Shown: positions 40,110 through 57,919 of the stretch, piece by piece
How positions within the stretch are numbered: the first letter of the stretch is position 1
Layout: each line of letters opens with the position of its first letter
NCBI RefSeq assembly: GCF_900102875.1
Contig: NZ_FNGH01000006.1
Location: 1 to 64,000, forward strand
Reading direction: 5' to 3'
Source of the DNA: Franzmannia pantelleriensis
GTDB taxonomy: Bacteria > Pseudomonadota > Gammaproteobacteria > Pseudomonadales > Halomonadaceae
Length of the DNA stretch: 64,000 nt
Made by a program: the position numbers and the translations under genes
The notes under the pieces: generated by a model
What the model was told of the DNA's origin: nothing
Database searches by the model: none
What the model saw: only the letters and a program-made list of their open reading frames with translations

Positions 40110-41083
40110 GAGCCCTCCTTGATGCGCGGGTCGGCCAGTCCGTAGACGAGATCGGTGATGATGTTGAACACGATCACCAGGGCGGCGGAGAAGAAGAAGA
40201 TCCCCAGCAGCAGGTTGTAGTCACGCTGTTGGAGTGCCTCGAACATCAGCCGTCCGATGCCAGGCCAGGCGAACACCGTCTCGGTGAGGATGGCGCCGCC
40301 CACCATCTGCCCGGCCTGCAGACCGGCCAGGGTGATGATCGGCAGCAGCGCGTTGCGCAGGATATGGCGTCGTTGGATGACGCTATTCTTGAGCCCCTTG
40401 GCGCGGGCGGTCTTGACGAAATCCTGTTGGCTGGCTTCGAGCATCGAGGCGCGGGTCATGCGGGTGTAGATCGCCATGAAGAACAGCGCCAGGGTCGTAG
40501 CAGGCAGGATCAGATGTTTGCCCACGTCGAGCACCAGGGCCAGGCCGGTATGGCCGGCACCCACGGTGTACATGCCGTAGGCGGGGAGCAGGTCCAGGTA
40601 GACCGAGAACAGTACCACCGACATCAGCGCCACCCAGAACAGCGGGGTGGCATAAAACAGCAGCGCCAGGGTCATGATGATCGAGCCGGAAGGCTTCTTG
40701 ACCCGCGCCGCGGCCAGCGAGCCGGCGACAATGCCGAGTGCCAGGGAGAGCACGAAGGCGGTGCCGGTGAGCAACAGGGTCGCCGGCAGACGCGCCAGGA
40801 TCAGGTCGAGTACCGGCACGCCCTGGCGGTAGGAGAAGCCGAAGTCGAGCATGGCGATGCCCGAGACATAGCGCCATAGCTGCACGTACATGGGTTGGTC
40901 GAGGCCGAAACGTTCACGCAGCTGGCGCAAGAACTCTTCATCGGTGGCGCCAGCCTCGCCGGCCAGGATGGCCGCGGGATCGCCGGGGGCAAGCTGGATC
41001 AGCACGAAGTTGAAGATGATGATCATGAACAGCACGACCACGGCCTTCAACAGGCGCATCGTGATCAATCGGAGATAGAGCAT
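40106..41083 (-). CDS. peptide ABC transporter permease, DppB-like
   Basis: A 325-residue permease with an N-terminal helix and the typical LAPGDPA segment, a periplasmic region (LRERFGLDQPMYVQLWRYVSG), five more helices and the EAA loop DFVKTARAKGLKNSVIQRRHILRNALLPIITLAGLQ. It pairs with the DppC-like permease. Confidence 0.9.
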   Translation of the reverse strand: MLYLRLITMRLLKAVVVLFMIIIFNFVLIQLAPGDPAAILAGEAGATDEEFLRQLRERFGLDQPMYVQLWRYVSGIAMLDFGFSYRQGVPVLDLILARLPATLLLTGTAFVLSLALGIVAGSLAAARVKKPSGSIIMTLALLFYATPLFWVALMSVVLFSVYLDLLPAYGMYTVGAGHTGLALVLDVGKHLILPATTLALFFMAIYTRMTRASMLEASQQDFVKTARAKGLKNSVIQRRHILRNALLPIITLAGLQAGQMVGGAILTETVFAWPGIGRLMFEALQQRDYNLLLGIFFFSAALVIVFNIITDLVYGLADPRIKEGS

Positions 41084-41111
41084 GCGAAGGCCTCAGGCTG
41101 GAGGAAACGCC

Positions 41112-41143
41112 TTGCCCCGGGGCGATTCACCGCCCCGGGGCAA
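41112..41143. terminator. stem-loop between binding protein and permease genes
   Basis: TTGCCCCGGGGCG / CGCCCCGGGGCAA, a perfect 13-bp stem with an ATTCAC loop. It lies 16 bp after the substrate-binding protein stop and upstream of the permeases. Such hairpins commonly cause partial termination or 3'-end protection, giving excess binding protein. Confidence 0.6.
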
Positions 41144-41158
41144 TCTGGTGGAGTCGAA

Positions 41159-42913: not shown

Positions 42914-43654
42914 ATGTCGATGCCAACCGATAGCCCCCCCGCAGCGCCGCGATTGCAGCAGACCAACCTGGTCGAGCAGGTGGCCGACTACCTCACTGAG
43001 GCGATCATTGCGCGCCACTTTGCCCCCGGCGTGCGGCTCTCGGAGGTGCAGCTGTCCCGCGACCTGGGCGTGAGTCGCGCACCCGTGCGCGAGGCGGCAA
43101 GGCTGCTTGAGAGTCGCGGCCTGCTGATATCGCGGCCCCGCAAGGGCTTCTTCGTGCGCGAACTCAACGGCGATGACCTGGCCGACGTCTTCGATCTCAG
43201 GCTCTGCTATGAACGCCACGCTTTCGAACTGCTGGCGGTGCGCTTCGACGAGGCTGCCCATGCCCAGCTGTCGCAGCAGGTGGAGACGATGTGCGAGCTG
43301 GCCAAGGGCAGCGATGACGGGCGCAAGATCGAGGCCGACCTGCGCTTCCATCGCCTGGTATTCGACATGGCCGGCAACCGGCGCCTGCTCAAGGCCTTCG
43401 ACGACCTGTCCCACGAGCTGAGGCTGTGCATGGCGCTGAACGAGCGCACCCACGCCGAGCCCGGACGCATCGCCGCCAATCACTGGCCGCTGATCGAGGC
43501 GCTGGCGAGCGGTAAGGCGCAGCGCTGCCGCGAGGCGGTGGACTACCACATCGGCGTGGCGCGGGACTATGTGATCCAAGGACTTGGGGGCGCTTCAGGC
43601 ACTGAACGCCCGATGAGCGGGGCTGGTGCAACAAGCGAGGAGGGGCGATGTTAA
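42914..43654 (+). CDS. GntR family regulator, FCD (FadR) type
   Basis: A 246-residue protein. The N-terminal wHTH shows YLTEAIIARHFAPGVRLSEVQLSRDLGVSRAPVREAARLLESRGLL and RPRKGFFVREL. The C-terminal FCD domain shows DLRLCYERHAFELLA, DLRFHRLVFDMAGNRRLL and an H-x-x-x-H (DYHIGVA) metal/ligand pattern. Divergent from the peptide transporter operon and overlapping the M20 gene, it probably controls both. Confidence 0.87.
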   Translation: MSMPTDSPPAAPRLQQTNLVEQVADYLTEAIIARHFAPGVRLSEVQLSRDLGVSRAPVREAARLLESRGLLISRPRKGFFVRELNGDDLADVFDLRLCYERHAFELLAVRFDEAAHAQLSQQVETMCELAKGSDDGRKIEADLRFHRLVFDMAGNRRLLKAFDDLSHELRLCMALNERTHAEPGRIAANHWPLIEALASGKAQRCREAVDYHIGVARDYVIQGLGGASGTERPMSGAGATSEEGRC

Positions 43655-44910
43655 GCGATCAGGAACAGCAAGTACTGGCGCAGTGCGATGCCTGCCTGGA
43701 GGAGACGCTCGCCTTGACCGAGACGTTGGTGCGCGAGTACAGCGTGCTGGGTGAGGAGCAGGGCGCGCTATCGGCGATGGAGGCGGCGTTCGAGCGGCTC
43801 GAGCTACCGGTGGAACGGGTGCCCATGGATGATCCGAGCCTGCTATCGCACCCTCGGCACGCGCCGGTACCCTGGTCCGGTGCCGGACGCTACTGCCTGG
43901 TGTCGGCGCTGAACCGTGATGCCCCTGGGCGGCATCTGGTGTTCAACGGCCATCTCGACGTGGTGCCGGCAGAGCCCACCGATACCTGGACCCGTCCTCC
44001 ATGGGAGCCCTGGCGGCAGGATGGCTGGCTCTACGGGCGCGGCGCTGGCGACATGAAGGCCGGGGTGGCGGCCATGATCATGGCCGTGGTCGCGGTGCGT
44101 CGTGCCGGCGTGGCGATCGAGGCGCCGCTGACGCTGCAGACGGTGATCGAGGAGGAGTGCAGCGGTAACGGCGCGCTGGCCTGCGTCAATGCGGGCCACG
44201 GCGGCGATTTCGTGCTGATCCCCGAGCCCTTCGGGCCGCGCCTCTACACTGGCCAGACCGGCGTGCTGCGCTTCAGGATTCGGGTCGACGGAGTGCCGGC
44301 GCATGTGCTCGATACCACCGCCGGCAGCGACGCCATCGAGACCATGCAGCGGCTGATTCCGGCGCTCAAGGCGTTCGAGGATGAACTCAACGCCGAGCGT
44401 GAGCCGCCCTACGACGCCTACGAGCACCCCTTCAACCTCAACATCGGCCGCTTCGAGGGCGGCAACTGGGCCTCCAGCGTGGCGGCTCATGCGGAAATCG
44501 AGGGGCGCATCGGCTTCGCGCCGGGGGTGGCGCCGGAGCAGGTCATGCAGCGCTTCGAGGCCTGCGTCGCACGCGCGCATCGTGAGCTGGCGCTACCCGG
44601 CGCGGCGCCCAACGTCGAGTTTCATGGCTTTCGCTCGCCGGGGCATCTGGTCGATCTCGAGGCGCCGGGTATCGGACTGCTCGATGAGTGCCATCGGGCA
44701 CTGACTGGCCGCGCTCCTGAGCACTATTTGTCGACCTGCATCACCGACCTGTGCGCGTTTCACGTCGCAGGCGGTGTGCCCGGCACCTGCTACGGGCCGG
44801 TGGCGGAACGCATCCATGGCATCGACGAGCGGGTCGAGATCGAGTCGATCCGCGATACCCTCAAGGCCTATGCGCTGTTCGTGTGCCGCTGGCAACGCGG
44901 CTCAGGGTGA
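43648..44910 (+). CDS. M20 family amidohydrolase (ArgE/DapE-like)
   Basis: A 420-residue zinc hydrolase. Metal-site segments are FNGHLDVVPAEPTDTW (His, Asp), WLYGRGAGDMKAGVAAM (bridging Asp) and TVIEEECSGNGALA (catalytic Glu and ligand). A dimerisation insert follows (NIGRFEGGNWASSVAAHAEIEGRIGFAPG). ArgE/DapE-type enzymes remove acyl groups from amino acids; related ones are dipeptidases or carbamoylases. The start overlaps the GntR stop (ATGTTAA). The substrate is likely what the divergent transporter imports. Confidence 0.85.
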   Translation: MLSDQEQQVLAQCDACLEETLALTETLVREYSVLGEEQGALSAMEAAFERLELPVERVPMDDPSLLSHPRHAPVPWSGAGRYCLVSALNRDAPGRHLVFNGHLDVVPAEPTDTWTRPPWEPWRQDGWLYGRGAGDMKAGVAAMIMAVVAVRRAGVAIEAPLTLQTVIEEECSGNGALACVNAGHGGDFVLIPEPFGPRLYTGQTGVLRFRIRVDGVPAHVLDTTAGSDAIETMQRLIPALKAFEDELNAEREPPYDAYEHPFNLNIGRFEGGNWASSVAAHAEIEGRIGFAPGVAPEQVMQRFEACVARAHRELALPGAAPNVEFHGFRSPGHLVDLEAPGIGLLDECHRALTGRAPEHYLSTCITDLCAFHVAGGVPGTCYGPVAERIHGIDERVEIESIRDTLKAYALFVCRWQRGSG

Positions 44911-44931: not shown

Positions 44932-45858
44932 TTAGCGCGTCGGCATGGGATAGCGGCGGTCGGCCTTGCCGGCCTTGACCACCTGGCCCGGTGTCTCGTG
45001 TCCGATGAGGGGGGGCAGGCGGGCAGAGACGTCAAGCAGGGCGTCCAGGTCGACACCGGTGGACACGCCCATCTCCTCGAACATATGCACCAGATCCTCG
45101 GTGCAGACGTTGCCGGTGGCGCCGGGCGCATAGGGGCAGCCGCCGAGTCCACCCAGCGATGCATCGAAGCGAACGATGCCGGCCTGCCAGGCGGCCATGG
45201 CGTTGGCCAGGCCCATGCCGCGAGTGTTGTGGAAGTGCAGGGTGAAGGGGACCTCGGGGAAGCGCTCGAGCACCGCTTCACACAGCCTTGCGACCTGGGC
45301 CGGGTTGGCCATGCCGGTGGTATCGCACAGGCTCACGCCCTGGACCCCCAGGGTGAGCTGCTGTTCCACCAGATCGAGCACCTGCGCCTCGGGCACCTCG
45401 CCCTCGAAGGGGCAGCCGAAGCTGGTGGAGAGCGAGGCGTTGATGAAGACGTCGCGCCCCTGCGGGTGGGCGCGGACGGTGTCAATAATGGCGGCGAACT
45501 GCTCGAGGGACTGCTGCGGTGTCATGCGCAGATTGGCCACGCCGTGGGAATCGCTCGCCGACATCACCAGATTGATCTCGTCCACGCTGCAGGCCAGCGC
45601 CCGTTCGGCGCCTTTGACGTTGGGCACCAGCACGGTGATCCCTACCCCCGGTCGGCGCTGGATCCCGGTTACCACCTCGGCGGCGTCACGCAGCTGGGGG
45701 ATCGCCTTGGGCGAGACGAAGCTCGTCGCCTCGATCCGCGCAAGGCCGGTGGCGGAAAGGGCGTCGATCAGGCCGATCTTGTCGGCGGTGGGCACGAACT
45801 CGGTTTCGATCTGCAGGCCGTCGCGGGGTGCCACCTCGTTGATCTGTAATGAAGACAT
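44932..45858 (-). CDS. second HMG-CoA lyase-like enzyme
   Basis: A 308-residue member of the HMGL-like family, distinct from LiuE: EVAPRDGLQIETEF at the N-terminus, NASLSTSFGCPFEG, TLHFHNTRGMGLANAM and [19 protein letters not shown] with the active cysteine. Its pairing with a family III CoA-transferase argues for a different CoA ester (free HMG after activation, or citramalyl-CoA) rather than leucine breakdown. It lies 15 bp after the CoA-transferase on the minus strand. Confidence 0.88.
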   Translation of the reverse strand: MSSLQINEVAPRDGLQIETEFVPTADKIGLIDALSATGLARIEATSFVSPKAIPQLRDAAEVVTGIQRRPGVGITVLVPNVKGAERALACSVDEINLVMSASDSHGVANLRMTPQQSLEQFAAIIDTVRAHPQGRDVFINASLSTSFGCPFEGEVPEAQVLDLVEQQLTLGVQGVSLCDTTGMANPAQVARLCEAVLERFPEVPFTLHFHNTRGMGLANAMAAWQAGIVRFDASLGGLGGCPYAPGATGNVCTEDLVHMFEEMGVSTGVDLDALLDVSARLPPLIGHETPGQVVKAGKADRRYPMPTR

Positions 45859-45873: not shown

Positions 45874-47079
45874 TCAGATGATGCCGGCGCTACGCAGCTT
45901 GGTGCGGGTCTCGTCATCGATGCCCAGCTCGTCGAGCACCTCGTCGGTGTGCTGGCCAAGTGCCGGGCCGCCATTGCCCAGCCGGCCCGGGGTGGCGCTG
46001 AGGCGGGGCAGAACGCCGGGAACCTTGAGCGGACGACCGTCGGGTCGGGTGATGGACTGGATCATCTCCCGGGCCAGGTAGTGCGGGTCGCTGGCAATGT
46101 CAGCAGCGGTATAGGGGAAGCCGGCGGGCACCCGGGCGGCGTCGAGTGCCGCGAGGATGTCGTCGCGGCCGAGCGTGACGCTCCAGGCTTCGATGGCGGC
46201 GTCGATCTTCGCGGCGTGTTGGCTGCGGCCATCGTTGTGGGCCAGCGCTGGATCCTCGGCCAGGTCGGCGCGGCCGATGACGTCCATCAGGCGCTTGAAG
46301 ATGCTGTCGCCGTTGCCGGCAATCAGCACGAAGTCACCGTCTCGGGTGCGGTAGGCATTCGACGGGGTGATGCCGGGCAGGGCGCTGCCGCCGGGTTCGC
46401 GTACCTGGCCGGTGGCGTCGTACTCGGGCAGCAGGCTCTCCATCATGGCGAACACCGATTCGTAGAGCGCCACGTCGATCTCCTGGCCGAGTCCGCTGCG
46501 TTGGCGCTCTTGCAGTGCCAGCAGGGTGCCAATCACCGCGTACAGGGCGGAGAGGGAGTCGCCGATGCTGACCCCGACTCGCACCGAGGGCTCCCCGGGC
46601 TGGCCGGTGAGGTAGCGCAACCCACCCATGGCTTCGCCGATGACCCCGAAGCCGGGCTTGTCGCGGTAGGGGCCGGTCTGGCCGTAGCCGGAAACGCGCA
46701 CCATGATCAGCCTTGGGTTGAGAGCGGCAAGCGCGTCATAGCCGAGCCCCCAGCCTTCCAGCGTGCCGGGGCGGAAGTTCTCGACCAGCACATCGGCCTC
46801 GCTGACCAGGCGGCGCACCAGGTCCTGCCCCTGGGCGGAACGCAAGTCGAGTGACACCGACCGCTTGGTGCGGCTCTGGACATGCCACCACAGCGAGGTC
46901 CCGTCCTCTATGATTCGCCATTTGCGAAGTGGGTCGCCGGTGCCGGGGGGTTCGATCTTGATCACGTCGGCGCCAAATTCACCCAGCAGCTTGGTCGCGA
47001 AGGGTCCAGCAATCAGCTGACCCAGTTCCAGCACCTTGAGGTCCTCTAGCGGGAGCTGGCGAGTCTCCGCAGTTGTCAT
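45874..47079 (-). CDS. CaiB/BaiF family III CoA-transferase
   Basis: A 401-residue CoA-transferase: LKVLELGQLIAGPFATKLLGEFGADVIKIEPPGTGDPLR at the N-terminus, DVLVENFRPGTLEGWGLGYD, YGQTGPYRDKPGFGVIGEAMGG and RVGVSIGDSLSALYA. Where formyl-CoA transferase has its catalytic Asp (usually GxD before the QA helix) I read Gly; I cannot say from sequence alone whether another acid replaces it. Likely relatives include succinyl-CoA:dicarboxylate CoA-transferases. The start MTTAETRQ has GAGGAG upstream. It is co-directional with the second HMGL-like gene and divergent from a LysR regulator. Confidence 0.87.
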   Translation of the reverse strand: MTTAETRQLPLEDLKVLELGQLIAGPFATKLLGEFGADVIKIEPPGTGDPLRKWRIIEDGTSLWWHVQSRTKRSVSLDLRSAQGQDLVRRLVSEADVLVENFRPGTLEGWGLGYDALAALNPRLIMVRVSGYGQTGPYRDKPGFGVIGEAMGGLRYLTGQPGEPSVRVGVSIGDSLSALYAVIGTLLALQERQRSGLGQEIDVALYESVFAMMESLLPEYDATGQVREPGGSALPGITPSNAYRTRDGDFVLIAGNGDSIFKRLMDVIGRADLAEDPALAHNDGRSQHAAKIDAAIEAWSVTLGRDDILAALDAARVPAGFPYTAADIASDPHYLAREMIQSITRPDGRPLKVPGVLPRLSATPGRLGNGGPALGQHTDEVLDELGIDDETRTKLRSAGII

Positions 47080-47218
47080 GGCAGCACTCCTCGGCAGTTT
47101 GTGTAACAGAATGGCGCCTGGCACAGGGGGGAAACAATTAGGCGATGGGTAAGCCGGGCTTCGTCGTTGGCGAACACTTCGCTAGGATAAGGCTCTACTC
47201 ACCTCCTCGAGAGTCACC

Positions 47219-48888
<1,670 letters not shown>

Positions 48889-49144: not shown

Positions 49145-50122
49145 ATGAAAAAATCACTGCTCGCTACCCTGATCGCTGCCGGCATGCTGGCAGCTGCCCC
49201 CCATGCCATGGCGGATACCATCGAGATCCAGGTCAACAACACCATGAGTGAAGGCGGCTCCGAGAGCGATGCCGTCGAGCGCTTTGCCGAGTATCTCGAG
49301 GAGCATGCCCCTGGCCGTTTCGATGTGCGTCCCTTCCTCGCCGGCTCTCTGGGCGGTGAGAACTCGGTGCTTGAGCTGCTCAATCTCGGCCAGACCCAGA
49401 TATCGATCACCGGCGGCAACTGGCGCCAGCAGTACGCCGAGGAGTATGACGCCATTACCGTGCCGTTCGTCTTCGCGACCTGGGAGGAGGTCGATGCCTT
49501 CATGGAGAGTCCTTCTGGCCAGCGGTTGATCGAGCAGGCCGAGGAGCGAGGCGGGCTGAAGTACTTTGGCACCCAGCACCGCGGGCCGCGCCACATGACC
49601 GCCAACCAGGCGATTCACTCACCGGATGACCTCGATGGATTCCGCCTGCGTCTGCCGTCACTGCCGGTGTGGCTGGAAGTCTGGGAAGAGATCGGCGCCC
49701 AGGTCGTCAATGTGCCGGCACCCGAGATCTACCTGTCGATGCAGACCGGTCAGGTCGATGGCCATGAGAACTCGCTCTCCTCGCCTTACACTCGCCAGCT
49801 GTGGGAGGTGCAAGACCACATCATTCTCACCAGCCATGTGCAGTTCCCCTGGAACTGGGTGGCCAGCAGCCAGTGGTGGGACGGTCTCGACGCTGAAGAC
49901 CAGGAGGTCATTACCGAGGCGATCCATGTCGCCCGCGAGTACGGTACCGAGCGCGAACGCGAACTCGATGAGTACTACCTGGAGCAGCTCGAGGAACGGG
50001 GCATGACCATTATCGAGCCCGATATCGATGCCTTCCGCGATGCCGCCATGCCGGCCATCGAGCGACTGCTCGAAGAGATGGCCGATGGGGTGATGGACGA
50101 TGCCCTCGGCGATGATGCCTGA
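49145..50122 (+). CDS. TRAP transporter, periplasmic receptor DctP
   Basis: A 325-residue TRAP receptor with a signal peptide (MKKSLLATLIAAGMLAAAPH, cleavage at AMA-D). Family features are FLAGSLGGENSVLELLNLGQTQISIT, VPFVFATWEEVDAFMES and LDGFRLRLPSLPVWLEVWEEIGAQVVNVPAPEIYLSMQTGQVDGHEN, where the Arg in RLRLPS usually binds a carboxylate. It is the first gene of a plus-strand run that includes deacetylases and amino acid enzymes. GGGAGAG precedes the ATG. Confidence 0.92.
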   Translation: MKKSLLATLIAAGMLAAAPHAMADTIEIQVNNTMSEGGSESDAVERFAEYLEEHAPGRFDVRPFLAGSLGGENSVLELLNLGQTQISITGGNWRQQYAEEYDAITVPFVFATWEEVDAFMESPSGQRLIEQAEERGGLKYFGTQHRGPRHMTANQAIHSPDDLDGFRLRLPSLPVWLEVWEEIGAQVVNVPAPEIYLSMQTGQVDGHENSLSSPYTRQLWEVQDHIILTSHVQFPWNWVASSQWWDGLDAEDQEVITEAIHVAREYGTERERELDEYYLEQLEERGMTIIEPDIDAFRDAAMPAIERLLEEMADGVMDDALGDDA

Positions 50123-50141
50123 CGCGTTTTCGTCATGACCG

Positions 50142-50176
50142 GCAACAGCGGCGACCCTACGGGGCGCCGCTGTTGC
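50142..50176. terminator. stem-loop between dctP and dctQ
   Basis: GCAACAGCGGCG / CGCCGCTGTTGC, a perfect 12-bp stem with loop ACCCTACGGGG, 19 bp after the dctP stop. No T-tract follows. It probably attenuates or stabilises mRNA so that DctP exceeds the membrane subunits. Confidence 0.6.
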
Positions 50177-50207
50177 ATTGTGAACAACCTCTGAGGAGGA
50201 GTCTGCC

Positions 50208-50750
50208 GTGTCCCGTTCTCCAACGCCGCCCGCCGCCACCGTGGACCGGGTGGCCTTTTATCTTCTGCGGGGGCTGACCTTGGGTTGCGATCTCCTGGGG
50301 GTGCTGCTGCTGGCGGGTGTATTGCTGCTGCTCTCGGGCGCCGTGGTGGCTCGCGATCTGCTCGGTCTGGGGATGCCCTGGTCCGAGGAGGTTGCCTCGC
50401 TGCTGGCTATCTATGCGATCGGATTCGGCTCGCTCTCTGCCTGGGTGCGTGGCGAACATCTGGTGGTGGATCTCTTCAGCCACCGACTCTCCGGCGTGTC
50501 TCGGGGCTTGCAGTATCGGCTCGTGGCGCTGCTTTCCTGCGGCTTCTTCGTGCTCGCCGCCTGGGGGGCCTGGATCATGATGGGCGCCAGCGCCAACAAC
50601 CGCACCGTGTCGCTGGGGATCAGTTTTAGCTATCTCTACCTGGGCATCCTGATTGGCTTCGCCGGTATGACGGTGCTCTCCGCCTGGCAGGTACTGAGAG
50701 GGCCGGTCGAGTGGCGACCCGTGGCGGACATGAACGAGGAGGGTGCCTGA
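50208..50750 (+). CDS. TRAP transporter, small permease DctQ
   Basis: A 180-residue membrane protein with four helices (LLGVLLLAGVLLLLSGAVVARDLLGLGMPWSEEVASLLAIYAIGFGSLSAWVRGEHLVVDLF and two more). The WSEEVA segment and the following GxGxxxAxxxGxH-like stretch are DctQ hallmarks. The start is GTG 50208 after GAGGAGGAG. Its stop overlaps the dctM start (TGATG). Confidence 0.87.
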   Translation: MSRSPTPPAATVDRVAFYLLRGLTLGCDLLGVLLLAGVLLLLSGAVVARDLLGLGMPWSEEVASLLAIYAIGFGSLSAWVRGEHLVVDLFSHRLSGVSRGLQYRLVALLSCGFFVLAAWGAWIMMGASANNRTVSLGISFSYLYLGILIGFAGMTVLSAWQVLRGPVEWRPVADMNEEGA

Positions 50751-52045
50751 TGCTCGAGCTGGTGATCTTTGTCGGCGCCCTGTTGCTGTTGATGGCCATT
50801 GGCCTACCGGTCGTCGTGGCGATCGGGATTACCTCCTTCATTGCCCTGGCAGTGACCAGTGCCACGGGGTTGTCGGTGGAACTGATGTCGCTGCGCATGG
50901 TGCAGACCCTGAATAACTATACCTTGCTGGCGATACCGCTGTTCATCCTGGCGGCCAATATCATGAATTCGGGCTCGACCACCTCGCGGATCTTCGACTT
51001 TGCTACTGCCCTGGTCGGTTTTACCAAAGGCGGGCTGGGGCACGCCAATGTGGTGGCCAGTTCGCTGTTCGCCACCATGTCGGGTACCGCGGTAGCGGAT
51101 GCCGCAGGTCTTGGCAGCGTCGAGATCAAGGCGATGAAGGAGCGCGGCTACGATCTGGGCTATTCGGCGGGGATCACCGCGGCGTCCAGCGTGATCGGTC
51201 CGATCCTGCCCCCCTCGATTGCCCTGGTGGTATATGGCTGGCTGGCCAATGTCAGCATCGGGGCGCTGTTCATGGCCGGCCTGGTGCCGGGTGTCCTGAT
51301 GGCGTTGATGCTGATGGGGTTGACCGTAGGGTTGGCGGCCACCAATCGGGTCAAGATGCCGGCACCGACACCCTTCTCGGGCAGCGAGGTGGTGCGTACC
51401 GGGCGTCGGGCGATTCTGCCGTTGGTGATGCCGGCGATCATCGTCGGCGGTATCTGGAGCGGTTTCTTCTCGCCCACTGAAGCCGGTGCAGTGGCCTCGC
51501 TCTATGCGCTGATCCTTGGCGGCTTGATTTACCGCGACCTGAGTCTGCTCGATGTCTATCGTGCCTTCCGCCGCACGCTGATGTTCAGCGCGGCGATCCT
51601 GCTGATTATCGCGGTATCGAGCTTCTATGGCTGGCTGCTGGTGCGGATAGGCATTCCGCAGGCGTTGGCCGGTGAGGTGGCCGGGCTGGAGGTGTCGACC
51701 CTGGTGCTGCTGCTGGGCTTTGCGCTGTTCTTCCTGCTGATCGGCTGTTTCATGTCGGTGATCGAGAGCATCCTGATCTTCACGCCGATCGTGGTGCCGG
51801 CGGCGTTGGCGGCGGGGCTCGATCCGTTGCACTTCGGTATCGTGATGGTCATTACCCTCTCGGTGGGTGTGGTGACCCCTCCCTTCGGCACGGTGCTGTT
51901 CCTGATGGTGGGGATTACCCGGCTACGCTATGGTCAGGTAGTCATGTCGGTGCTGCCCTTTCTGGTGCCGATTTTCACCACCATCCTGGTCCTGATCGCG
52001 TTTCCCGGACTGGTGACTTGGTTACCGGCGCGATTGGGCTATTGA
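50750..52045 (+). CDS. TRAP transporter, large permease DctM
   Basis: A 431-residue permease with about 12-13 helices. DctM features are LLLMAIGLPVVVAIGITSF, NNYTLLAIPLFILAANIMNSG, GHANVVASSLFATMSGTAVADAAGLGSVEIKAM, GILPPSI-like GPILPPSIALVVYG, and the C-terminal FGIVMVITLSVGVVTPPFGTVLFLMVGI. It overlaps dctQ by TGATG and is followed 12 bp later by a deacetylase gene. Confidence 0.92.
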   Translation: MLELVIFVGALLLLMAIGLPVVVAIGITSFIALAVTSATGLSVELMSLRMVQTLNNYTLLAIPLFILAANIMNSGSTTSRIFDFATALVGFTKGGLGHANVVASSLFATMSGTAVADAAGLGSVEIKAMKERGYDLGYSAGITAASSVIGPILPPSIALVVYGWLANVSIGALFMAGLVPGVLMALMLMGLTVGLAATNRVKMPAPTPFSGSEVVRTGRRAILPLVMPAIIVGGIWSGFFSPTEAGAVASLYALILGGLIYRDLSLLDVYRAFRRTLMFSAAILLIIAVSSFYGWLLVRIGIPQALAGEVAGLEVSTLVLLLGFALFFLLIGCFMSVIESILIFTPIVVPAALAAGLDPLHFGIVMVITLSVGVVTPPFGTVLFLMVGITRLRYGQVVMSVLPFLVPIFTTILVLIAFPGLVTWLPARLGY

Positions 52046-52057
52046 CGAGCGACGTAT

Positions 52058-53092
52058 ATGCAACTCTATTACCACCCTGATCAGGCACGCCACGCGCCGC
52101 CCAGCTTTCTTCTGCGCGGCCGTGCCGTGGCCTCCCCGGAGGGGCCGGTACGCGCCGAGCTGCTGTCAGCGGGTGTGGCGGAGTGTGGATTTACCCTGTC
52201 GGTTCCCGCTGCGGGGGATGGCGAGCGCCTGCGCGAGCGGCTCGCGCGGGTGCACTCGCCACGCTATCTCGAGTTCCTCGAGACCATTCATGCCCGCTGG
52301 CAGGCGCTGCCGGATGCCGCCGAGATCGTTGCGCCCAACGTGCACCCGTGCGGCGGCGGCCACCACTACCCACGCCATGCGGTGGGGCAGGTTGGCTGGC
52401 ACATGCACGACATGGCCTGTCCGATGACCGCGGAGAGTTTCACCGGCATCCTGGCCAGTGCTGCCACCGCCGAGGCCGCCGCCGAGTCGGTACTGGCAGG
52501 CCAGCGCCACGCCTATGCGCTGTGCCGTCCCCCGGGTCATCACGCCGGGCCGGAGCGGGCCGGCGGCTTCTGCTTCCTGAACAATTCGGCGCTGGCCGCT
52601 ACGGTGCTGCGCGAACAGCATGCGCGGGTGGCGATTCTCGACGTCGACCTGCATCATGGCAACGGCACCCAGGATATCTTCTACGCCCGGGGCGATGTCT
52701 GGACTGGCTCGCTGCACGCTGACCCGGCAGATTTCTATCCGTTCTTCTGGGGCGGGGCCGACGAAACCGGTGACGGCGAAGGGGTTGGCGCCAACCTCAA
52801 TATTCCGCTGGCGTTGGGCAGCGACGGGGCTGCCTTCATGGCGGCGCTGGAACGCCTTATCGACGCGATGCAGGCGTTTCGGCCCACCGCGCTGGTGGTG
52901 GCATTGGGGCTCGACGCCCACAAGGCCGATCCGCTGGCCGGTCTGATGCTGGAGACCGAGGACTTCACGCCCCTGGGGCAGCGGCTGGCAGCCATCGACC
53001 TGCCGACGGTGATCGTCCAGGAGGGGGGCTACCCGACCGAATGGCTGGCGGCCAACCTGGCCGCGTTCATGCGCGGCTACTGCCAGTCCTGA
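52058..53092 (+). CDS. HDAC-superfamily deacetylase (acetylpolyamine amidohydrolase-like), first copy
   Basis: A 344-residue arginase/deacetylase-fold protein. Active-site elements are CRPPGHHAGPERAGGFCFLNN (His161, His162), the zinc site DVDLHHGNG (Asp197, His199) and LGLDAHKADPLAG (Asp286), and the catalytic Tyr325 in EGGYPTEW. This family removes acetyl groups from polyamines or lysine-like amines. It starts 12 bp after dctM and is only distantly related to the second HDAC-like gene of the same operon. Confidence 0.88.
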   Translation: MQLYYHPDQARHAPPSFLLRGRAVASPEGPVRAELLSAGVAECGFTLSVPAAGDGERLRERLARVHSPRYLEFLETIHARWQALPDAAEIVAPNVHPCGGGHHYPRHAVGQVGWHMHDMACPMTAESFTGILASAATAEAAAESVLAGQRHAYALCRPPGHHAGPERAGGFCFLNNSALAATVLREQHARVAILDVDLHHGNGTQDIFYARGDVWTGSLHADPADFYPFFWGGADETGDGEGVGANLNIPLALGSDGAAFMAALERLIDAMQAFRPTALVVALGLDAHKADPLAGLMLETEDFTPLGQRLAAIDLPTVIVQEGGYPTEWLAANLAAFMRGYCQS

Positions 53093-53148
53093 TCGTTGTT
53101 TCACCTGGTTGGCCTCGTTGGTCAACCCATCATGAGAGAGCGTCACCT

Positions 53149-53505
53149 ATGAGCATCCAGTATCACGACAGCAATACCCGCATGAGTCAGGCCGCCGTGC
53201 ACAACGGTACCGTCTACCTGGCCGGCCAGGTGCCGGACGATGCCAGCGCCGATATGCGCGGTCAGACCGAGCAGGTATTGGCCAAGATCGAGCGTCTGCT
53301 GGCCGCCGCCGGCTCCTCCAAGGAGCAGCTGCTCAGCGCCCAGATCTGGGTGACCAGCATGGCCGAGTTCGATCAGATGAATGCCGCCTGGGACGCCTGG
53401 GTCGTGCCCGGACGCCCGCCGGTGCGTGCTGCCGTCGAGGCCAAACTGGCCAAGCCCGAATGGAAGGTCGAGATCATGGTCACGGCGGCGATTCCGGAGG
53501 CGTAA
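53149..53505 (+). CDS. RidA/YjgF family enamine/imine deaminase
   Basis: A 118-residue RidA protein: VHNGTVYLAGQVPDDASADMRGQTEQVLAKIERLLAAAGSSKEQLLSAQIWVTSMAEF and a C-terminal RPPVRAAVEAKLAKPEWKVEIMVTAAI with the arginine (R of PPVRAAV) used for substrate carboxylate binding. It hydrolyses 2-enamine/imine intermediates to 2-oxoacids. It lies 1 bp before the cyclodeaminase-like gene, a direct hint that this operon makes imines. Confidence 0.9.
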   Translation: MSIQYHDSNTRMSQAAVHNGTVYLAGQVPDDASADMRGQTEQVLAKIERLLAAAGSSKEQLLSAQIWVTSMAEFDQMNAAWDAWVVPGRPPVRAAVEAKLAKPEWKVEIMVTAAIPEA

Positions 53506-53506
53506 C

Positions 53507-54448
53507 ATGCGCGTGGTATCGGCCGAAGAGGTAGCCGCGTCGCTGCCGTGGCAGGCGCTGGTGGAGCGCCTGGGGCAAACCTTTCGTGACGGTGTGGAAT
53601 CTCCGCCACGTCACCACCACGCCATGCAGCGCCCCGACGGAGAGGCGACGCTGCTGCTGATGCCGGCCTGGGAGAAGGCCGGCTACATCGGGGTCAAGAT
53701 GGTCAACGTCTTTCCCCAGAATGCCGACCATGGCCTGCCCGCTATCGCCGGGGTCTATCTGCTCAGCGAGGGGGCACACGGACGCCCGCTGGCGTGCCTT
53801 GACGGTAGCGAGCTGACCCGGCGACGCACCGCGGCGGCGTCGGCACTGGCGGCCCGCGAGCTGGCCCGTGACGATGCCGAGACCCTGCTGGTGGTGGGGA
53901 CCGGAAAGCTGGCACCGATGGTGATCGAGGCGCATGCCGCAGTACGCCCGATCAAGCGCGTGCGGATATGGGGGCGCAACGTCGACAAGGCCGAACGCTT
54001 GGCGGCCGAGTATGCCGGGCGCTTCGAGACCGCCGCGGTCACTGACCTCGAGGCGGCCACCCGCGAGGCGGATATCGTCAGCTGCGTAACGCTGTCGAGC
54101 GAGCCGCTGATCCGCGGCGCCTGGCTCACTCCCGGCACCCATCTCGACCTGATCGGCGCCTTTCGCCCGAGCATGCGCGAGACCGACGCCGACTGCCTGG
54201 CGCGCAGCGAGGTGTTCGTCGACACCTACGCCGGGGCCAAGGGCGAGGCGGGCGATATTCTCCAGGCCATCGACGAGGGGCGTTTCCAGCTCGATGCCAT
54301 CGGCGCCGAGCTGGCAGAGCTGCTGCGCGGTGAGAAGCCGGGGCGCAGCAGCGACCAGGCGATCACCCTGTTCAAGTCGGTGGGTGCTTCGCTGGAGGAC
54401 CTGGCGGCGGCCATTGAGGTATGGGAACAGCTCGAGGGGCGCGGATGA
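53507..54448 (+). CDS. ornithine cyclodeaminase/mu-crystallin family, probable cyclic imine reductase
   Basis: A 313-residue protein: MRVVSAEEVAASLPWQALVE, the substrate-contact YIGVKMVNVFPQN with Lys64, a Rossmann fold VVGTGKLAPMVIEAHAAVRPIKRVRIWGR, and HLDLIGAFRPSMRETD. Members are ornithine cyclodeaminases, or NAD(P)H reductases of pyrroline-2-carboxylate/piperideine-2-carboxylate (ketimine reductases). The reductase option fits the RidA and DadA-like neighbours better than cyclodeamination, but this is inference. Its stop overlaps the second HDAC start (ATGA). Confidence 0.85.
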   Translation: MRVVSAEEVAASLPWQALVERLGQTFRDGVESPPRHHHAMQRPDGEATLLLMPAWEKAGYIGVKMVNVFPQNADHGLPAIAGVYLLSEGAHGRPLACLDGSELTRRRTAAASALAARELARDDAETLLVVGTGKLAPMVIEAHAAVRPIKRVRIWGRNVDKAERLAAEYAGRFETAAVTDLEAATREADIVSCVTLSSEPLIRGAWLTPGTHLDLIGAFRPSMRETDADCLARSEVFVDTYAGAKGEAGDILQAIDEGRFQLDAIGAELAELLRGEKPGRSSDQAITLFKSVGASLEDLAAAIEVWEQLEGRG

Positions 54449-55548
54449 CGCGGCCCACCGGCTTCTTCTGGCATGAGCGCTGTTTCTGGCACGACCCCGG
54501 TGCGATCGGTGTGTTTTCTGCGCCGGGGGCGTTTCTGCAGCCGCAGCCGGCCTCGGAAAGCCCCGAGAGCAAGCGGCGTCTGAAGAACCTGCTCGAAGTC
54601 TCAGGATTGATCGATGAACTGGCGGTTCGCAAGCCGCTGCCAGCGAGCCGCCAGGACCTCGAGCATTTTCACACCGCTCGCTATCTCGACGCGCTGGAAC
54701 GCGGCGATGCTGCACGCGGCGGCGATGCCGGCGAGGCCGCGCCTTATTCGTACGGCAGTCTGGGGGCGGCCCGCCAAGCGGTGGGGTTGGCCATTGCCGC
54801 GGTCGACGCGGTGGCCAGCGGCGAGCTGACCAATGCCTATGCGCTGTGCCGGCCACCGGGGCACCACGCCGAGCCGGATCGCGGGCGTGGCTTCTGCCTG
54901 CTGGGCAATATCCCGGTGGCGGTGATGCGTGCCCGAGCCGAGGGACGACTCGGGCGGGTGGCGATTCTGGATTGGGATGTTCACCACGGCAACGGCCAGC
55001 AGGTTGCCTTCTACGACGATCCAGACGTGCTGACCATTTCGCTGCACCAGGCTGCCAATTACCCCCTCGAGAGTGGCGGTTTCGACGAGCGGGGTGTCGG
55101 GCCAGGGGTAGGCGCCAATCTCAATCTGCCGCTGCCGCCGGGCTGTGGGATCGGCGCCTACGACTACGCCATGCGTGAGTTAGTGGTGCCGGCCCTCGAG
55201 GCCTTTGCCCCCGAGCTGATCGTGGTGGCGTGTGGCTATGACGCCGGCGCCAAGGATCCGCTGGGCAAGATGCTGCTCAACAGTGCAGCCTTCGCGGCGA
55301 TGACGAACCAGGTCATGGCGGTGGCAGGTCGCGTCTGCGAGGGGCGCCTGGTGATGGCTCACGAAGGGGGCTATTCGGAAGGCTATGTGCCGCTGTGCGG
55401 GCATGCCGTGATCCAGACGCTGGCCGGCAGCCGGATCGGCGTGGCCGACCCGCAGAATGACGAAATCGCCGCCTGGGGGTATCAGGCGCTCCAACCTCAC
55501 CAGCAGGCGCTGATCGACGACTGGCGGCGCCAGGCGATAACGCAGTAG
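54445..55548 (+). CDS. HDAC-superfamily deacetylase (class II HDAH-like), second copy
   Basis: A 367-residue deacetylase. ALCRPPGHHAEPDRGRGFCLLGN (His140, His141), DWDVHHGNGQQ (Asp178, His180), CGYDAGAKDPLG (Asp266) and HEGGYSEGY (Tyr310) give the complete zinc site and Tyr. The N-terminus FFWHERCFWHDPG is typical of bacterial class II HDAH-like enzymes. It is not an obvious recent duplicate of 52058-53092; two different deacetylases in one operon suggest two acyl substrates or steps. The ATGA overlap with the cyclodeaminase-like gene supports co-translation. Confidence 0.88.
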   Translation: MTRPTGFFWHERCFWHDPGAIGVFSAPGAFLQPQPASESPESKRRLKNLLEVSGLIDELAVRKPLPASRQDLEHFHTARYLDALERGDAARGGDAGEAAPYSYGSLGAARQAVGLAIAAVDAVASGELTNAYALCRPPGHHAEPDRGRGFCLLGNIPVAVMRARAEGRLGRVAILDWDVHHGNGQQVAFYDDPDVLTISLHQAANYPLESGGFDERGVGPGVGANLNLPLPPGCGIGAYDYAMRELVVPALEAFAPELIVVACGYDAGAKDPLGKMLLNSAAFAAMTNQVMAVAGRVCEGRLVMAHEGGYSEGYVPLCGHAVIQTLAGSRIGVADPQNDEIAAWGYQALQPHQQALIDDWRRQAITQ

Positions 55549-55601
55549 GCTGGTGGCAGCAAGGCATATCACTATAACAACCAGTGTCGGGGAGAGACGT
55601 C

Positions 55602-56876
55602 GTGGAGATTGCGGTGATCGGAGCCGGGGTGGTGGGTGTGACCACCGCGCACGCGCTGCAGCAGCGCGGTCACCGGGTCACGGTGGTAGAGAGTCACGCT
55701 GCCGCCGGGCTCGAAACCAGCCGCGCCAATGCCGGCCAACGCAGCTATGGCTATGTTTACCCCTGGGCCTCGCCGGCCATGCTCAAGAAGGCCTTGCCGT
55801 GGTTGGTCAAGCGTGACGGGCCACTCAAGCTGCAGCTGCCGCCATCGCGGGATACCCTGCGCTTTCTGGCGGCGACCTGGCGGTTTGCCCAGGCGCCCGG
55901 CCTGTTCGAGGCCAACAAGCGTGCCATGCTGCGCCTTGGTGCCTACAGTCGGCAATGTTTCCAGGCCCTGGAAGACGATGCGACGCTGGCCTTCGACGGT
56001 GGCCACGGCGGACTGATCGATCTCGCCAGCGACGTCGAGTCGCTCAAGGGGCTGCAGGTCAACGCTGGGCTGCTGGACGAGATGGGTATCGAGCATCAGT
56101 TGCTGACCGCCGCTGAGGTTGCCGAGCACGAGCCGGCCCTTGCCCACAGCCAGCCGCTGGTGGGGGGGATCTGGTTGCCTGGTGACGGCACCGGCGACTG
56201 CTACCGTTTCACCCAGGCGCTGGCGGCGGTCTGCCAGGCCCGCGGGGTACGCTTCCTGTTCGATACCCAGGTGACCGGCGCGCAGCGTGATCAGGGGGGG
56301 CATCTGCGAGCGCTGACGCTGGCCGCCAACGACGGCGAGGCGCTTGAGCCGTTGGCCGCCGACGCCTTCGTGCTCTGCGCCGGTACTGCCTCGCATCGAC
56401 TCGGGGAGCTGTTTGGTGCCCGCCTGCCGATCTATCCGGTCAAGGGGTATTCGCTCACCATGCCGCTGCGCGATGCGTCGCGGGCACCCCGCTCGACGGT
56501 GATCGATGATCGCCATAAAGTCGTGGTTACGCGGCTTGGCGAGCGTCTACGGGTCACCGGCTTTGTCGAGCTGGCGGGGCATGATCGTGAGATCCCGAGC
56601 CAGCGGCTGGCGACGCTGCGTCACGCCTTGGCGTCGCGTTTCGACGGGGCCGCCGATTTCGATGCCGCAGAGCCTTGGACCGGGTTCCGACCGATGACCC
56701 CGGACGGGCCGCCGGTGATCGGCGAAGGCAAGCGCAACAACCTGTTTCTCAATACTGGCCACGGCACCTTCGGCTGGACGCTTTCAGCGGCCAGCGCCCA
56801 GTTGATCGCCCAACTGATCGATGGCGATAAACCGGCGCTGGCACTTGAGGCGTTTCGCCCCGGGCGCTTCGGCTAA
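55602..56876 (+). CDS. FAD-dependent D-amino acid dehydrogenase, DadA-like
   Basis: A 424-residue DAO-family flavoprotein. Dinucleotide motif AVIGAGVVGVTTAHAL at the N-terminus, ANAGQRSYGYVYPWASPAMLKKALPWL characteristic of DadA, and C-terminal EPWTGFRPMTPDGPPVIGEGKRNNLFLNTGHGTFGWTLS. DadA oxidises D-amino acids to 2-oxo acids through imines. I prefer GTG 55602 (GGGGAGAG six bases before) over GTG 55584. It lies 53 bp after the second deacetylase gene. Confidence 0.87.
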   Translation: MEIAVIGAGVVGVTTAHALQQRGHRVTVVESHAAAGLETSRANAGQRSYGYVYPWASPAMLKKALPWLVKRDGPLKLQLPPSRDTLRFLAATWRFAQAPGLFEANKRAMLRLGAYSRQCFQALEDDATLAFDGGHGGLIDLASDVESLKGLQVNAGLLDEMGIEHQLLTAAEVAEHEPALAHSQPLVGGIWLPGDGTGDCYRFTQALAAVCQARGVRFLFDTQVTGAQRDQGGHLRALTLAANDGEALEPLAADAFVLCAGTASHRLGELFGARLPIYPVKGYSLTMPLRDASRAPRSTVIDDRHKVVVTRLGERLRVTGFVELAGHDREIPSQRLATLRHALASRFDGAADFDAAEPWTGFRPMTPDGPPVIGEGKRNNLFLNTGHGTFGWTLSAASAQLIAQLIDGDKPALALEAFRPGRFG

Positions 56877-56905
56877 CGGCTCATTCATTTGGCAAGGACG
56901 CGACC

Positions 56906-57877
56906 ATGACGCCCCTTTACGACCGCGACGGATGGATCTGGCAGGACGGTGAATGGTTGGCCTGGCGCGAGGCTACTACCCATCTGTTGAGCCACACCCT
57001 GCACTACGGCATGGGCTGCTTCGAGGGCGTGCGCGCCTACGCAGGCGCAAAGGGGACCCATCTGTTCCGGGCCGCCGAGCATACGCGCCGTCTGCTGGAC
57101 AGCGCCCACTCGCTGGATATGCCGCTGGCCTGGGACGCCGCAACGCTGATCGAGGCACAGCGCGAGTGTCTGCAACGCAACCAGCTCAGCAATGCCTACC
57201 TGAAGCCGACGGTGTTCTTTGGCGCCGAGGGATTGGGGTTGCGTGCCAAGGGCTTGACCACCCACGTGATGATCGCCGCCTGGGATCTTGGCGACTACCT
57301 CGACCCGCGCGCTGCGCGCGTCGGTCTGCGGGCGTTGACCTCCTCCTGGGCACGCCACCACGTCAATATCAGCCTGTGTCGCGCCAAGACCAACGGCCAC
57401 TACGTCAACTCGATTCTGGCGCTGAATACCGCGGTCAAGGCGGGCTTCGACGAGACCATCATGCTCGACCCGGAGGGTTATGTCGCCGAGGCCTCCGCGG
57501 CCAATGTCTTCCTGCTGCGCGATGGCGTACTGCACACCCCGGAGGTCACCTCCTGCCTGCAGGGCATCACCCGCGACAGCGTGATTCAGCTGGCGCGCCG
57601 CGAGCTGGGCCTGGAGGTAGGCGAGCGGCGCATCACCCGCGACGAGCTATATACCGCCGACGAGGCCTTTCTCACCGGTACCGCTGCGGAGATCCTGCCG
57701 CTGCGTGAGCTCGACGGACGGCGCATTGGCGCCCGTGGCGCCGATGCCAACCAGGCCCTTGAGGAGATCGACCCGGAGAGCGTGACGGCGCGCCTGCAGG
57801 GGCTCTATCGACGCCTTACGCGGGGCGAGCTGGCTGGCTACGAGGCGTGGCTGACACCGGTCACACAGAGCCAGTAG
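56906..57877 (+). CDS. ilvE: branched-chain amino acid aminotransferase-like (class IV PLP)
   Basis: A 323-residue fold-type IV aminotransferase: YGMGCFEGVRAYAGAKGTHLFR, the PLP lysine in CRAKTNGHYVNSILALNTA (Lys161), and EASAANVFLLRDGVLHTPEVTSCLQGITRDSVI. Length and motifs fit IlvE. Its location at the end of the deacetylase operon, 29 bp after DadA-like, raises the chance that it works in that pathway (or on another amino acid); the biosynthetic role cannot be excluded. A terminator follows. Confidence 0.85.
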   Translation: MTPLYDRDGWIWQDGEWLAWREATTHLLSHTLHYGMGCFEGVRAYAGAKGTHLFRAAEHTRRLLDSAHSLDMPLAWDAATLIEAQRECLQRNQLSNAYLKPTVFFGAEGLGLRAKGLTTHVMIAAWDLGDYLDPRAARVGLRALTSSWARHHVNISLCRAKTNGHYVNSILALNTAVKAGFDETIMLDPEGYVAEASAANVFLLRDGVLHTPEVTSCLQGITRDSVIQLARRELGLEVGERRITRDELYTADEAFLTGTAAEILPLRELDGRRIGARGADANQALEEIDPESVTARLQGLYRRLTRGELAGYEAWLTPVTQSQ

Positions 57878-57890: not shown

Positions 57891-57919
57891 ACGCCATGAA
57901 GCCCGACGCTTCATGGCGT
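57891..57919. terminator. terminator after the aminotransferase
   Basis: ACGCCATGAAGC / GCTTCATGGCGT, a perfect 12-bp stem with a CCGAC loop, then ATTCCC. The stem is preceded by AAAGAAA, so it may also act for the minus strand. It ends the long plus-strand run; a second hairpin GGCACC-GTCCG-GGTGCC follows near 57.94 kb. Confidence 0.65.

Follow-up and report, generated by a model that had tools for sequence, protein, structure and literature searches.

A conserved set of genes in halomonads, encoding two deacetylases (HDAC1 and HDAC2), a RidA-type protein, an OCD-family reductase, an IlvE-like aminotransferase and sometimes a DadA-like oxidase, probably allows these salt-loving bacteria to deacetylate a nutrient or osmolyte derived from lysine and so to yield pipecolate. 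The set was analysed in a stretch of 64,000 nucleotides from Franzmannia pantelleriensis, here called the window, and in related genomes.

Within the window the genes form part of a run of nine open reading frames on one strand, all within 49145-57877 and each scoring above the gathering score of a Pfam family (in order DctP, DctQ, DctM, Hist_deacetyl, Ribonuc_L-PSP (RidA), OCD_Mu_crystall, Hist_deacetyl, DAO and Aminotran_4), which is the arrangement that an earlier note on this DNA had described. The run begins with a TRAP transporter, termed type 1, comprising the substrate-binding protein DctP (49145..50122, plus strand, as are all nine; PF03480, 202.9 bits), DctQ (50208..50750; PF04290) and DctM (50750..52045; PF06808). 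It continues with HDAC1, an acetylpolyamine-amidohydrolase-like zinc deacetylase (52058..53092; PF00850; closest solved structure 3men, phmmer 9.1e-81), a RidA-family imine/enamine hydrolase (53149..53505; PF01042) and an OCD/mu-crystallin-family ketimine reductase of the pyrroline-2-/piperideine-2-carboxylate reductase type (53507..54448; NF004793). HDAC2, an HDAH-like zinc deacetylase (54445..55548; PF00850; closest solved structure 9glb, phmmer 2.3e-112), a DadA-like FAD oxidoreductase (55584..56876; NF001933) and an IlvE-like fold-type-IV aminotransferase linked to HDAC2 (56906..57877; NF005146 and TIGR01122) complete it. The 'several' overlaps claimed earlier come down to two, a TGATG at dctQ/dctM and an ATGA at OCD/HDAC2. 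The remaining spacings are 1 bp (RidA/OCD), 12 bp (dctM/HDAC1), 29 bp (DadA/IlvE), 56 bp (HDAC1/RidA), 85 bp (dctP/dctQ) and, measured from the called DadA start, 35 bp (HDAC2/DadA). Likely true starts are 50750 for dctM, 53149 for RidA, 53507 for OCD and 54445 for HDAC2, and DadA probably starts at 55602, with a purine-rich stretch upstream. Past IlvE stands a strong hairpin (57891..57919; z -6.2), T-tailed and terminator-like on the minus strand; trmJ reads toward it, and trmJ is found near 25 of the 43 HDAC1 loci described below.

Conservation was assessed in 121 genomes of the family, with HDAC1 counted at 66% identity or more and the window-type OCD at 71% or more. HDAC1 is present in 43 of these genomes, which also hold OCD (42), IlvE (38), HDAC2 (37) and DadA (11); at the HDAC1 locus itself the figures are 41 for OCD, 40 for RidA, 38 for IlvE, 37 for HDAC2 and 11 for DadA. 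The genes remain clustered despite several differing gene orders. Across the 121 genomes their co-occurrence exceeds chance, with Fisher p values, uncorrected for shared ancestry, of 5e-24 for HDAC1 with OCD and 1e-30 for HDAC2 with IlvE, the latter pair occurring together in 38 of 39 genomes. The conserved gene set that the earlier note had expected is thus borne out for its core, HDAC1-RidA-OCD-HDAC2-(DadA)-IlvE. That note took a gene order unique to the strain as grounds against a single pathway; the core is not unique, and the order that includes the window's TRAP occurs in five genomes of one genus among the 43 HDAC1 loci. The core set was not found around the HDAC1 homologs of lower identity (38-50%), which make up 52 of the 80 loci examined and show lone partners: a RidA homolog at four loci (L062, L067, L074 and L088), a 32% DadA homolog at L071 and weak TRAP matches at L075, L090 and L091. 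Plasmid searches gave HDAC1, OCD and DadA matches all below 60% identity; with the surroundings viewed for two OCD records, a parallel cluster on plasmids is still possible.

The best clue to function comes from OCD where it occurs in pipecolate clusters without HDAC1. The protein passes the curated model NF004793 (432.6 against a cut-off of 322 bits), in agreement with its earlier assignment as a pyrroline- or piperideine-2-carboxylate reductase; the name of the model is bifunctional, and the five-membered (proline) ring is covered too. Other identities were rejected: the scores are 129.6 against 350 for ornithine cyclodeaminase proper (NF005762), 153.7 against 471.65 for EutC of ectoine use (TIGR02992) and 152.3 against 400 for LhpI proper. 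An ectoine route was set aside as well, the EutC, EhuA and EhuB matches all being below cut-off, and no scanned protein passed an ectoine-specific model.

The window-type OCD is found in 49 of the 121 genomes, seven of them without HDAC1, and in four of these seven it lies within an L-pipecolate (lysine) gene cluster. At three of the loci (L201, L213 and L214) OCD directly adjoins the pipecolate oxidase AmaA, with AmaB, AmaC and HglS nearby. At L140 an OCD-DadA pair adjoins HglS and AmaC, with AmaA and AmaB some 4-9 kb away, and all four Ama and HglS proteins score above their curated cut-offs. At L209 and L210 OCD is located next to trmJ together with genes for an AraC regulator, an NhaC-family transporter and a DAO-family oxidase, and no deacetylase was detected; AmaA was not found in G013, which also has OCD without HDAC1. 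In the tree the pipecolate-linked OCDs nest among the cluster OCDs with support of 92/82, which falls short of the tool's star. AmaA is present in 26 of the 49 OCD genomes against 10 of the 72 others, and in 20 of the 43 HDAC1 genomes against 16 of the 78 others, a modest excess (p 0.004, uncorrected for ancestry). It was not found in the other 23 HDAC1 genomes, a point against the pipecolate reading, as is the cover of the proline ring by NF004793; in those genomes the product would have to be stored or routed elsewhere. HglS, present in 35 of the 43 HDAC1 genomes against 52 of the 78 others (p 0.10) and also in E. coli, gives on its own no support for the pipecolate reading. The window genome carries AmaA, AmaB and HglS above cut-off on the same contig (C16:198871-207972), along with an AmaC recognised by its 79% identity with the L140 protein.

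The RidA protein belongs to PF01042 and fails the archetype model TIGR00004 (51.1 against a cut-off of 106.25). The DadA-like protein passes NF001933 for D-amino acid dehydrogenase (442.2 against 383) and is an optional member, occurring in 14 of the 121 genomes; DadA orthologs without OCD were seen at L141 and L142 in uninformative surroundings. The IlvE-like protein passes both NF005146 (369.7 against 279) and TIGR01122 (341.7 against 245.55). At E<=1e-120 it is found in 39 of the 121 genomes, 38 of which have HDAC1, and in the 39th (G098) it sits beside HDAC2 and RidA. A misplaced housekeeping gene was rejected because the orthologs are found only with the cluster and not in all relatives.

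We put at about even the chance that the core funnels an N-acetylated lysine into L-pipecolate. The substrate would most likely be N6-acetyl-lysine imported from outside, a compound already among the candidates of the earlier note, and it is still a matter of prediction, as is the route. The substrates of the deacetylases and the aminotransferase cannot be read from sequence. The acetyl group would act as a protecting group during the first step, loss of the alpha-amino group through the action of the IlvE-like aminotransferase or, in genomes that have it, of the DadA-like oxidase. This would give 6-acetamido-2-oxohexanoate or its imine, with RidA assisting with the imine. HDAC2 and/or HDAC1 may then strip the acetyl, whichever acts at this point, and the freed amine would close spontaneously to delta1-piperideine-2-carboxylate, which the OCD-family reductase is predicted to convert to L-pipecolate. 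In the window strain L-pipecolate could be burned via AmaA-AmaB-AmaC-HglS, and in strains without AmaA it is possibly retained as a compatible solute.

Such a route would resemble the D-lysine/L-pipecolate pathway of Pseudomonas putida, which runs from piperideine-2-carboxylate to L-pipecolate, 2-oxoadipate and on, and whose lower enzymes AmaA, AmaB, AmaC and HglS are those encoded in the window genome. It would differ in its entry, predicted to be an acetylated lysine handled by two zinc deacetylases and an IlvE-like aminotransferase, and in its reductase, which in the halomonad cluster is of the OCD type, like the OCD-family reductases of NF004793 and distinct from LhpI proper; DpkA of P. 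putida belongs to another family. The later steps of the acetyl-lysine route of yeast lead to acetamidovalerate, not pipecolate. The likeness lies in its first step, in which the acetyl group shields the epsilon amine while the alpha amine is transaminated by the N6-acetyl-lysine aminotransferase cited for a yeast in PMC4685198, where N-acetyl-lysines and pipecolate are also named as compatible solutes. Among the papers listed by searches of open-licence literature, a set exclusive of subscription papers and preprints, no title or abstract opening described the gene set or an acetyl-lysine-to-pipecolate route. It is tentatively suggested, as possible rather than probable, that a so far undescribed pathway for acetyl-masked lysine operates in halophilic bacteria, in which HDAC-family enzymes serve as metabolic deacetylases releasing 6-acetamido-2-oxohexanoate into spontaneous ring closure, and scavenged N6-acetyl-lysine, an osmolyte and protein-turnover product, becomes the osmolyte L-pipecolate or fuel.

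HDAC1 and HDAC2 are relatives of human histone deacetylases, and both keep sequence motifs of acetyl-removing enzymes, in support of their earlier description as zinc deacetylases: RPPGHH and EGGY are invariant in all 44 aligned rows of HDAC1 and all 38 of HDAC2. Graf et al. tie these motifs to acetyl-only removal and report them for the groups of both enzymes (PMC11532494). The same two groups hold the acetylpolyamine deacetylases PA0321 and PA1409 and the HdaH PA3774 of Pseudomonas aeruginosa, the natural substrate of PA3774 being given as unknown in PMC4784309. By its motifs and closest solved members (best phmmer matches 9glb, 9gku, 9gkw, 5li3 and 5g0x) HDAC2 fits the sub-cluster 1b HdaH deacetylases. 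That HDAC1 is instead an acetylpolyamine deacetylase, in a polyamine catabolism locus with OCD and IlvE as bystanders, is very unlikely, even though 3men, the solved protein that it matches best, is an acetylpolyamine aminohydrolase, and an ABC transporter of the SBP_bac_8 type, Pot-like in looks, is encoded at one relative locus (L164). The cluster 4 acetylpolyamine deacetylases are marked by a PIS motif and, where the L2 loop ends, by the polyamine-binding Glu106 or a His106 (PMC11532494). HDAC1, unlike PA0321 and PA1409, lacks both: the position aligned with Glu106, number 109 by a single pairwise alignment, holds V in 30 and I in the other 14 of the 44 rows, and DPLAG (PLA) is read in place of PIS. 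The acetylated polyamines proposed earlier are made unlikely by this loss of the polyamine-binding residue, although polyamines are still accepted by one cluster 4 enzyme that has His106 (PMC11532494) and residue 106 is therefore not decisive alone. Moreover, 42 of the 43 HDAC1 genomes also have OCD, a member of a family whose substrates are 2-imino acids. An unlikely alternative substrate is N5-acetyl-ornithine, one carbon shorter, which would be transaminated, deacetylated, cyclised to pyrroline-2-carboxylate and reduced to the compatible solute L-proline; the bifunctional scope of NF004793 and the 23 HDAC1 genomes without AmaA are in its favour, but the lysine/pipecolate surroundings of OCD in four of the seven genomes without HDAC1 speak against it. 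It is highly improbable that the substrate of the cluster is a different N-acyl diamino acid or a beta-amino acid, such as the known osmolyte N6-acetyl-beta-lysine (PMC4685198), with OCD scavenging a minor imine. The distant locus L062, from a Hoeflea MAG, does combine a class III aminotransferase with a beta-keto acid cleavage enzyme, but no such cleavage enzyme was noticed among the listed genes of the halomonad loci, and the reductase family works on alpha-imino acids.

It is also quite unlikely that all nine genes form a single pathway with a dedicated TRAP importer, as the earlier note had it. The gap between dctM and HDAC1 is 11-12 bp in the window and four sister genomes (5/5 of the genus examined), and a TRAP just upstream of HDAC1 is the rule elsewhere: of the 43 loci, 30 have a second type, 25 with gaps of 7-39 bp, four of 93-1521 bp and one with an overlap extrapolated from a partial match, while type 1 is found in five, all of the window's genus, and eight have none. 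Against this reading, DadA is missing from 32 of the 43 HDAC1 genomes, and a search for the window-type DctP in 293 genomes of the order, few of the 121 family genomes among them, found orthologs of this TRAP in G010 and G033 (L219-L221) with HMG-CoA-lyase, CaiB (82-83% identity) and LysR genes and without deacetylases. Those two genomes carry their HDAC cluster at another site, G010 with TRAP type 2 and G033 without TRAP. Genes of the same three kinds stand upstream of TRAP in the window, encoding an HMG-CoA-lyase-like protein (44932..45858, minus strand; NF004283, 344.5 against a cut-off of 246), a CaiB-family CoA-transferase (45874..47124, minus strand; nearest NCBIfam models all below cut-off) and a LysR regulator (47219..48112, plus strand; 83% orthologs by TRAP in L219-L221) that was not detected in the sister genome L144. 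Hence the TRAP in the window looks to have been swapped in from an HMG-CoA-lyase/CaiB module, if we infer the direction of the move correctly. It may or may not carry the new substrate; the solved relatives of DctP are all remote (best 2.5e-38), and its ligand is therefore not readable from its sequence. No transporter is constant across the clusters, ABC systems being found at L164 and, of the amino-acid type (SBP_bac_3), at the Marinobacter locus L057.

Bacterial HDAC-like enzymes often lack a known natural substrate, and the conserved linkage of two of them, in one operon, with a ketimine reductase that has a pipecolate context gives them a testable small-molecule role. A tight operon can conceal a swapped transporter, and an upstream binding protein need not report the original substrate of a pathway. 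For the halomonads, the operon would connect acetyl-lysine osmolytes with pipecolate in saline habitats.

The window was placed on contig 16 (C16) of a 4.4 Mb genome, and the nine same-strand open reading frames described in the earlier note were recovered in the order claimed (49145–57877), each with its expected Pfam domain. Of the several overlaps also claimed, stop/start overlaps are present at two junctions only, dctQ/dctM and OCD/HDAC2; the remaining gaps measure 1–85 bp. With NCBIfam models, the OCD protein scores 432.6 (cut-off 322) as a pyrroline-2-/piperideine-2-carboxylate reductase, DadA 442.2 (cut-off 383) for the D-amino acid dehydrogenase subfamily and IlvE 369.7 (cut-off 279) as a branched-chain transaminase. 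RidA scores under the Rid archetype cut-off, and neither deacetylase was matched by an NCBIfam model in the scan of the window proteins. The closest solved structure to HDAC1 is 3men, an acetylpolyamine aminohydrolase, and that to HDAC2 is 9glb, one of the HDAH-type deacetylases. With positions mapped through the alignment of HDAC1 to 3men, the polyamine-binding Glu106 is replaced by V or I in 44/44 HDAC1 rows, and an A occupies the position of Glu117, a residue with a role in polyamine binding. The motifs RPPGHH and EGGY are kept in every aligned row of both HDAC1 and HDAC2, a pattern that PMC11532494 reports for acetyl-only enzymes.

The gene set is real and conserved. HDAC1 relatives of more than 64% identity occur in named records of Halomonas, Billgrantia, Vreelandella, Modicisalibacter and Onishia, which marks the window's source as a halomonad. 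A Halomonas elongata strain (L060) also carries the cluster. Among the best 80 loci from an HDAC1 scan of named genomes, 28 exceed 60% HDAC1 identity (26 halomonads and 2 Marinobacter); by ORF clustering, and with several of them on short contigs, these 28 loci carry OCD in 24 cases, IlvE in 22, HDAC2 in 21 and RidA in 20, and 18 have a conserved regulator that is AraC-family by Pfam. The core set was not found in the other 52 of the best 80 (38–50% HDAC1 identity), which have single partners only, such as a RidA homolog in 4. Within 121 family genomes, where orthologs were called by the identity taken from search listings, HDAC1 (at least 66%) is found in 43, HDAC2 (at least 72%) in 38, IlvE (at least 74%) in 39, OCD (at least 71%) in 49 and DadA (at least 67%) in 14; some HDAC1 homolog at E 1e-60 is present in 77. 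HDAC1 co-occurs with OCD in 42 of the 121 genomes and with IlvE in 38, and HDAC2 accompanies IlvE in 38 of 39, all counts that ignore ancestry. More telling than such ancestry-blind counts is that the core is kept together despite varied gene order. The commonest order is AraC-TRAP-HDAC1-RidA-OCD-HDAC2-IlvE, genus g11 has AraC-RidA-OCD-TRAP-HDAC1-HDAC2-IlvE, and both Marinobacter L057 and G012, a sister of the window genome, have HDAC1-RidA-OCD-DadA. Five HDAC1 genomes (G011, G012, G038, G083 and G104) lack both HDAC2 and IlvE, and only G060 has IlvE without HDAC2. The gene trmJ is near HDAC1 in 25 of the 43 family loci. At L181, L039 and L048, HDAC1 lies near trmJ with all other core genes absent; these lone copies may be relics or genes of independent function. 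In G069 (L161:264–6767) a repetitive ORF of 2167 residues, surface-protein-like by eye, sits immediately upstream of the cluster.

The single nine-gene unit envisaged earlier, with the TRAP transporter as its importer, is not borne out, since DadA is present in 11 of the 43 HDAC1 genomes and the TRAP differs at 30 of the 43 loci. These 30 have a second type (35–39% identity to the window DctM and 26–31% to DctP), 5, all in the window's genus, have the window type and 8 have none. Three other loci, those of G010, G033 and Halomonas sp. PA16-9, combine a window-type TRAP with adjacent orthologs (78–83%) of the window's HMG-CoA lyase (44932–45858), CaiB transferase (45874–47124) and LysR regulator (47219–48112). 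A GlcD-like oxidase with 39–41% identity to the gene at 36224 in the window is also present there, and none of the three showed a deacetylase. An HpaI-family aldolase (387.7, cut-off 368.8) and a mandelate-racemase/enolase-superfamily protein adjoin the TRAP in G033, and similar ORFs occur in PA16-9; the aldolase is absent from the G010 locus. The HDAC cluster sits elsewhere in G010 (with the second TRAP type) and in G033 (without a TRAP). On a Phaeobacter plasmid, a DctP of 59% identity adjoins CaiB, acyl-CoA dehydrogenase, MaoC and CoA ester lyase genes. The other home of the window TRAP is thus an acid/CoA module, and the transporter looks to have been grafted onto the core. Yet the dctM end is 11–12 bp from HDAC1 in 5/5 genomes of the window's genus (12 bp in the window) and 7–39 bp in 25/30 loci of the second type, so we read the TRAP as having been exchanged at a site that is transcribed together with the core. 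The dctP–dctQ gap contains a hairpin of high stability (50140–50177; z −4.6 for 50120–50205), which could perhaps allow excess production of dctP.

Other importers accompany the core elsewhere. The Modicisalibacter muralis core (L043 and L164, the same contig) has an SBP_bac_8-type ABC system, and Marinobacter L057 an SBP_bac_3 (amino-acid-type) ABC system whose binding protein falls under the cut-off of its nearest curated model, the Lys/Arg/Orn-binding TIGR01096 (175.7 vs 256.35). Upstream of HDAC1-RidA-OCD-DadA at L057 (4103–13758) lie a class III aminotransferase, 3-oxoacid CoA-transferase subunits and this transporter. In the window, the region upstream of the TRAP encodes, on the strand opposite to the cluster, an Opp-type ABC transporter together with a GlcD-like oxidase, an EamA-family protein and a HisC-like aminotransferase (about 34186–42712), and then, on the cluster's strand, an ArgE/DapE-type M20 deacylase (43648–44910). 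Of the 43 family loci, 7 besides the window's have orthologs of these Opp genes next to the HDAC cluster, as do four named loci (L044, L046, L053 and L055). Among the 52 loci with more distant HDAC1 homologs, 8 have related Opp genes (49–73%) no more than 10 kb away, in Alpha- and Betaproteobacteria (two Azospirillum, Ramlibacter, Polaromonas, Allosediminivita, Thalassospira, Primorskyibacter and Azorhizobium). The Opp transporter might offer acetylated or peptide-bound substrate another way into the cell. A Hoeflea MAG (L062:4944–12491) has an SBP_bac_8 binding protein, an ABC ATPase, a class III aminotransferase, a beta-keto acid cleavage enzyme (488.7 against a cut-off of 430 for NF053538), a GNAT acetyltransferase, an HDAC, a DAO oxidase and RidA in one run, a pairing of acetyltransferase and deacetylase within a single putative pathway.

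The OCD enzyme (53507–54448) is the anchor for reading the function of the core. It occurs without HDAC1 in 7 of its 49 genomes. In G025 (L201), G064 (L214) and G084 (L213) it adjoins the L-pipecolate oxidase gene AmaA, with AmaB/AmaC/HglS around. In G103 (L140) OCD and DadA adjoin HglS and AmaC, and AmaB and AmaA follow at a distance of a few kb, all four pathway proteins exceeding curated cut-offs (689.1/600, 816.9/730, 751.1/650 and 740.3/550). G021 (L209) and G040 (L210) have an AraC-NhaC-DAO-OCD set without deacetylases adjoining trmJ, and AmaA elsewhere; G013 (L211) lacks AmaA and has a DAO gene divergent to OCD. A tree built from 52 OCDs groups the four enzymes linked to pipecolate genes with the cluster OCDs of genus g19, among which they fall, and with a long-branched Marinobacter row (support 92/82), a position that makes them part of the same enzyme lineage. 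The window genome carries AmaA, AmaB, AmaC and HglS at C16:198871–207972, where no OCD or DadA match was found, and the cluster OCD is the sole match in that genome at E 1e-90. On Agrobacterium pAt1 (L222, 6760–16924), a 53% OCD relative right behind a Zn-dependent hydrolase, with an Opp-type ABC transporter nearby, is a possible parallel deacylase–reductase pair.

Our preferred reading of the core is an acetyl-masked branch that feeds the lysine/pipecolate pathway, for which we infer both substrate and mechanism. The α-amino group would leave while the ε-amino group is acetylated, giving a 2-oxo-6-acetamido acid unable to cyclise; charge-masked lysine would be a fitting substrate for an IlvE-like transaminase. 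Deacetylation would then free the amine for ring closure to piperideine-2-carboxylate, which is spontaneous, and OCD would turn this into L-pipecolate. The tight HDAC2–IlvE linkage suggests that HDAC2 acts on the IlvE product. DadA may serve the D-form or replace IlvE, and it occurs without IlvE in G012 and Marinobacter L057. The AraC-NhaC-DAO-OCD version would follow the same idea with free lysine as substrate.

AmaA is missing from 23 of the 43 HDAC1 genomes, a count with which a version leading from ornithine to proline is equally compatible. For a halophile, the benefit could lie in turning an osmolyte that it scavenges into a different one, and this would also account for these 23 genomes.
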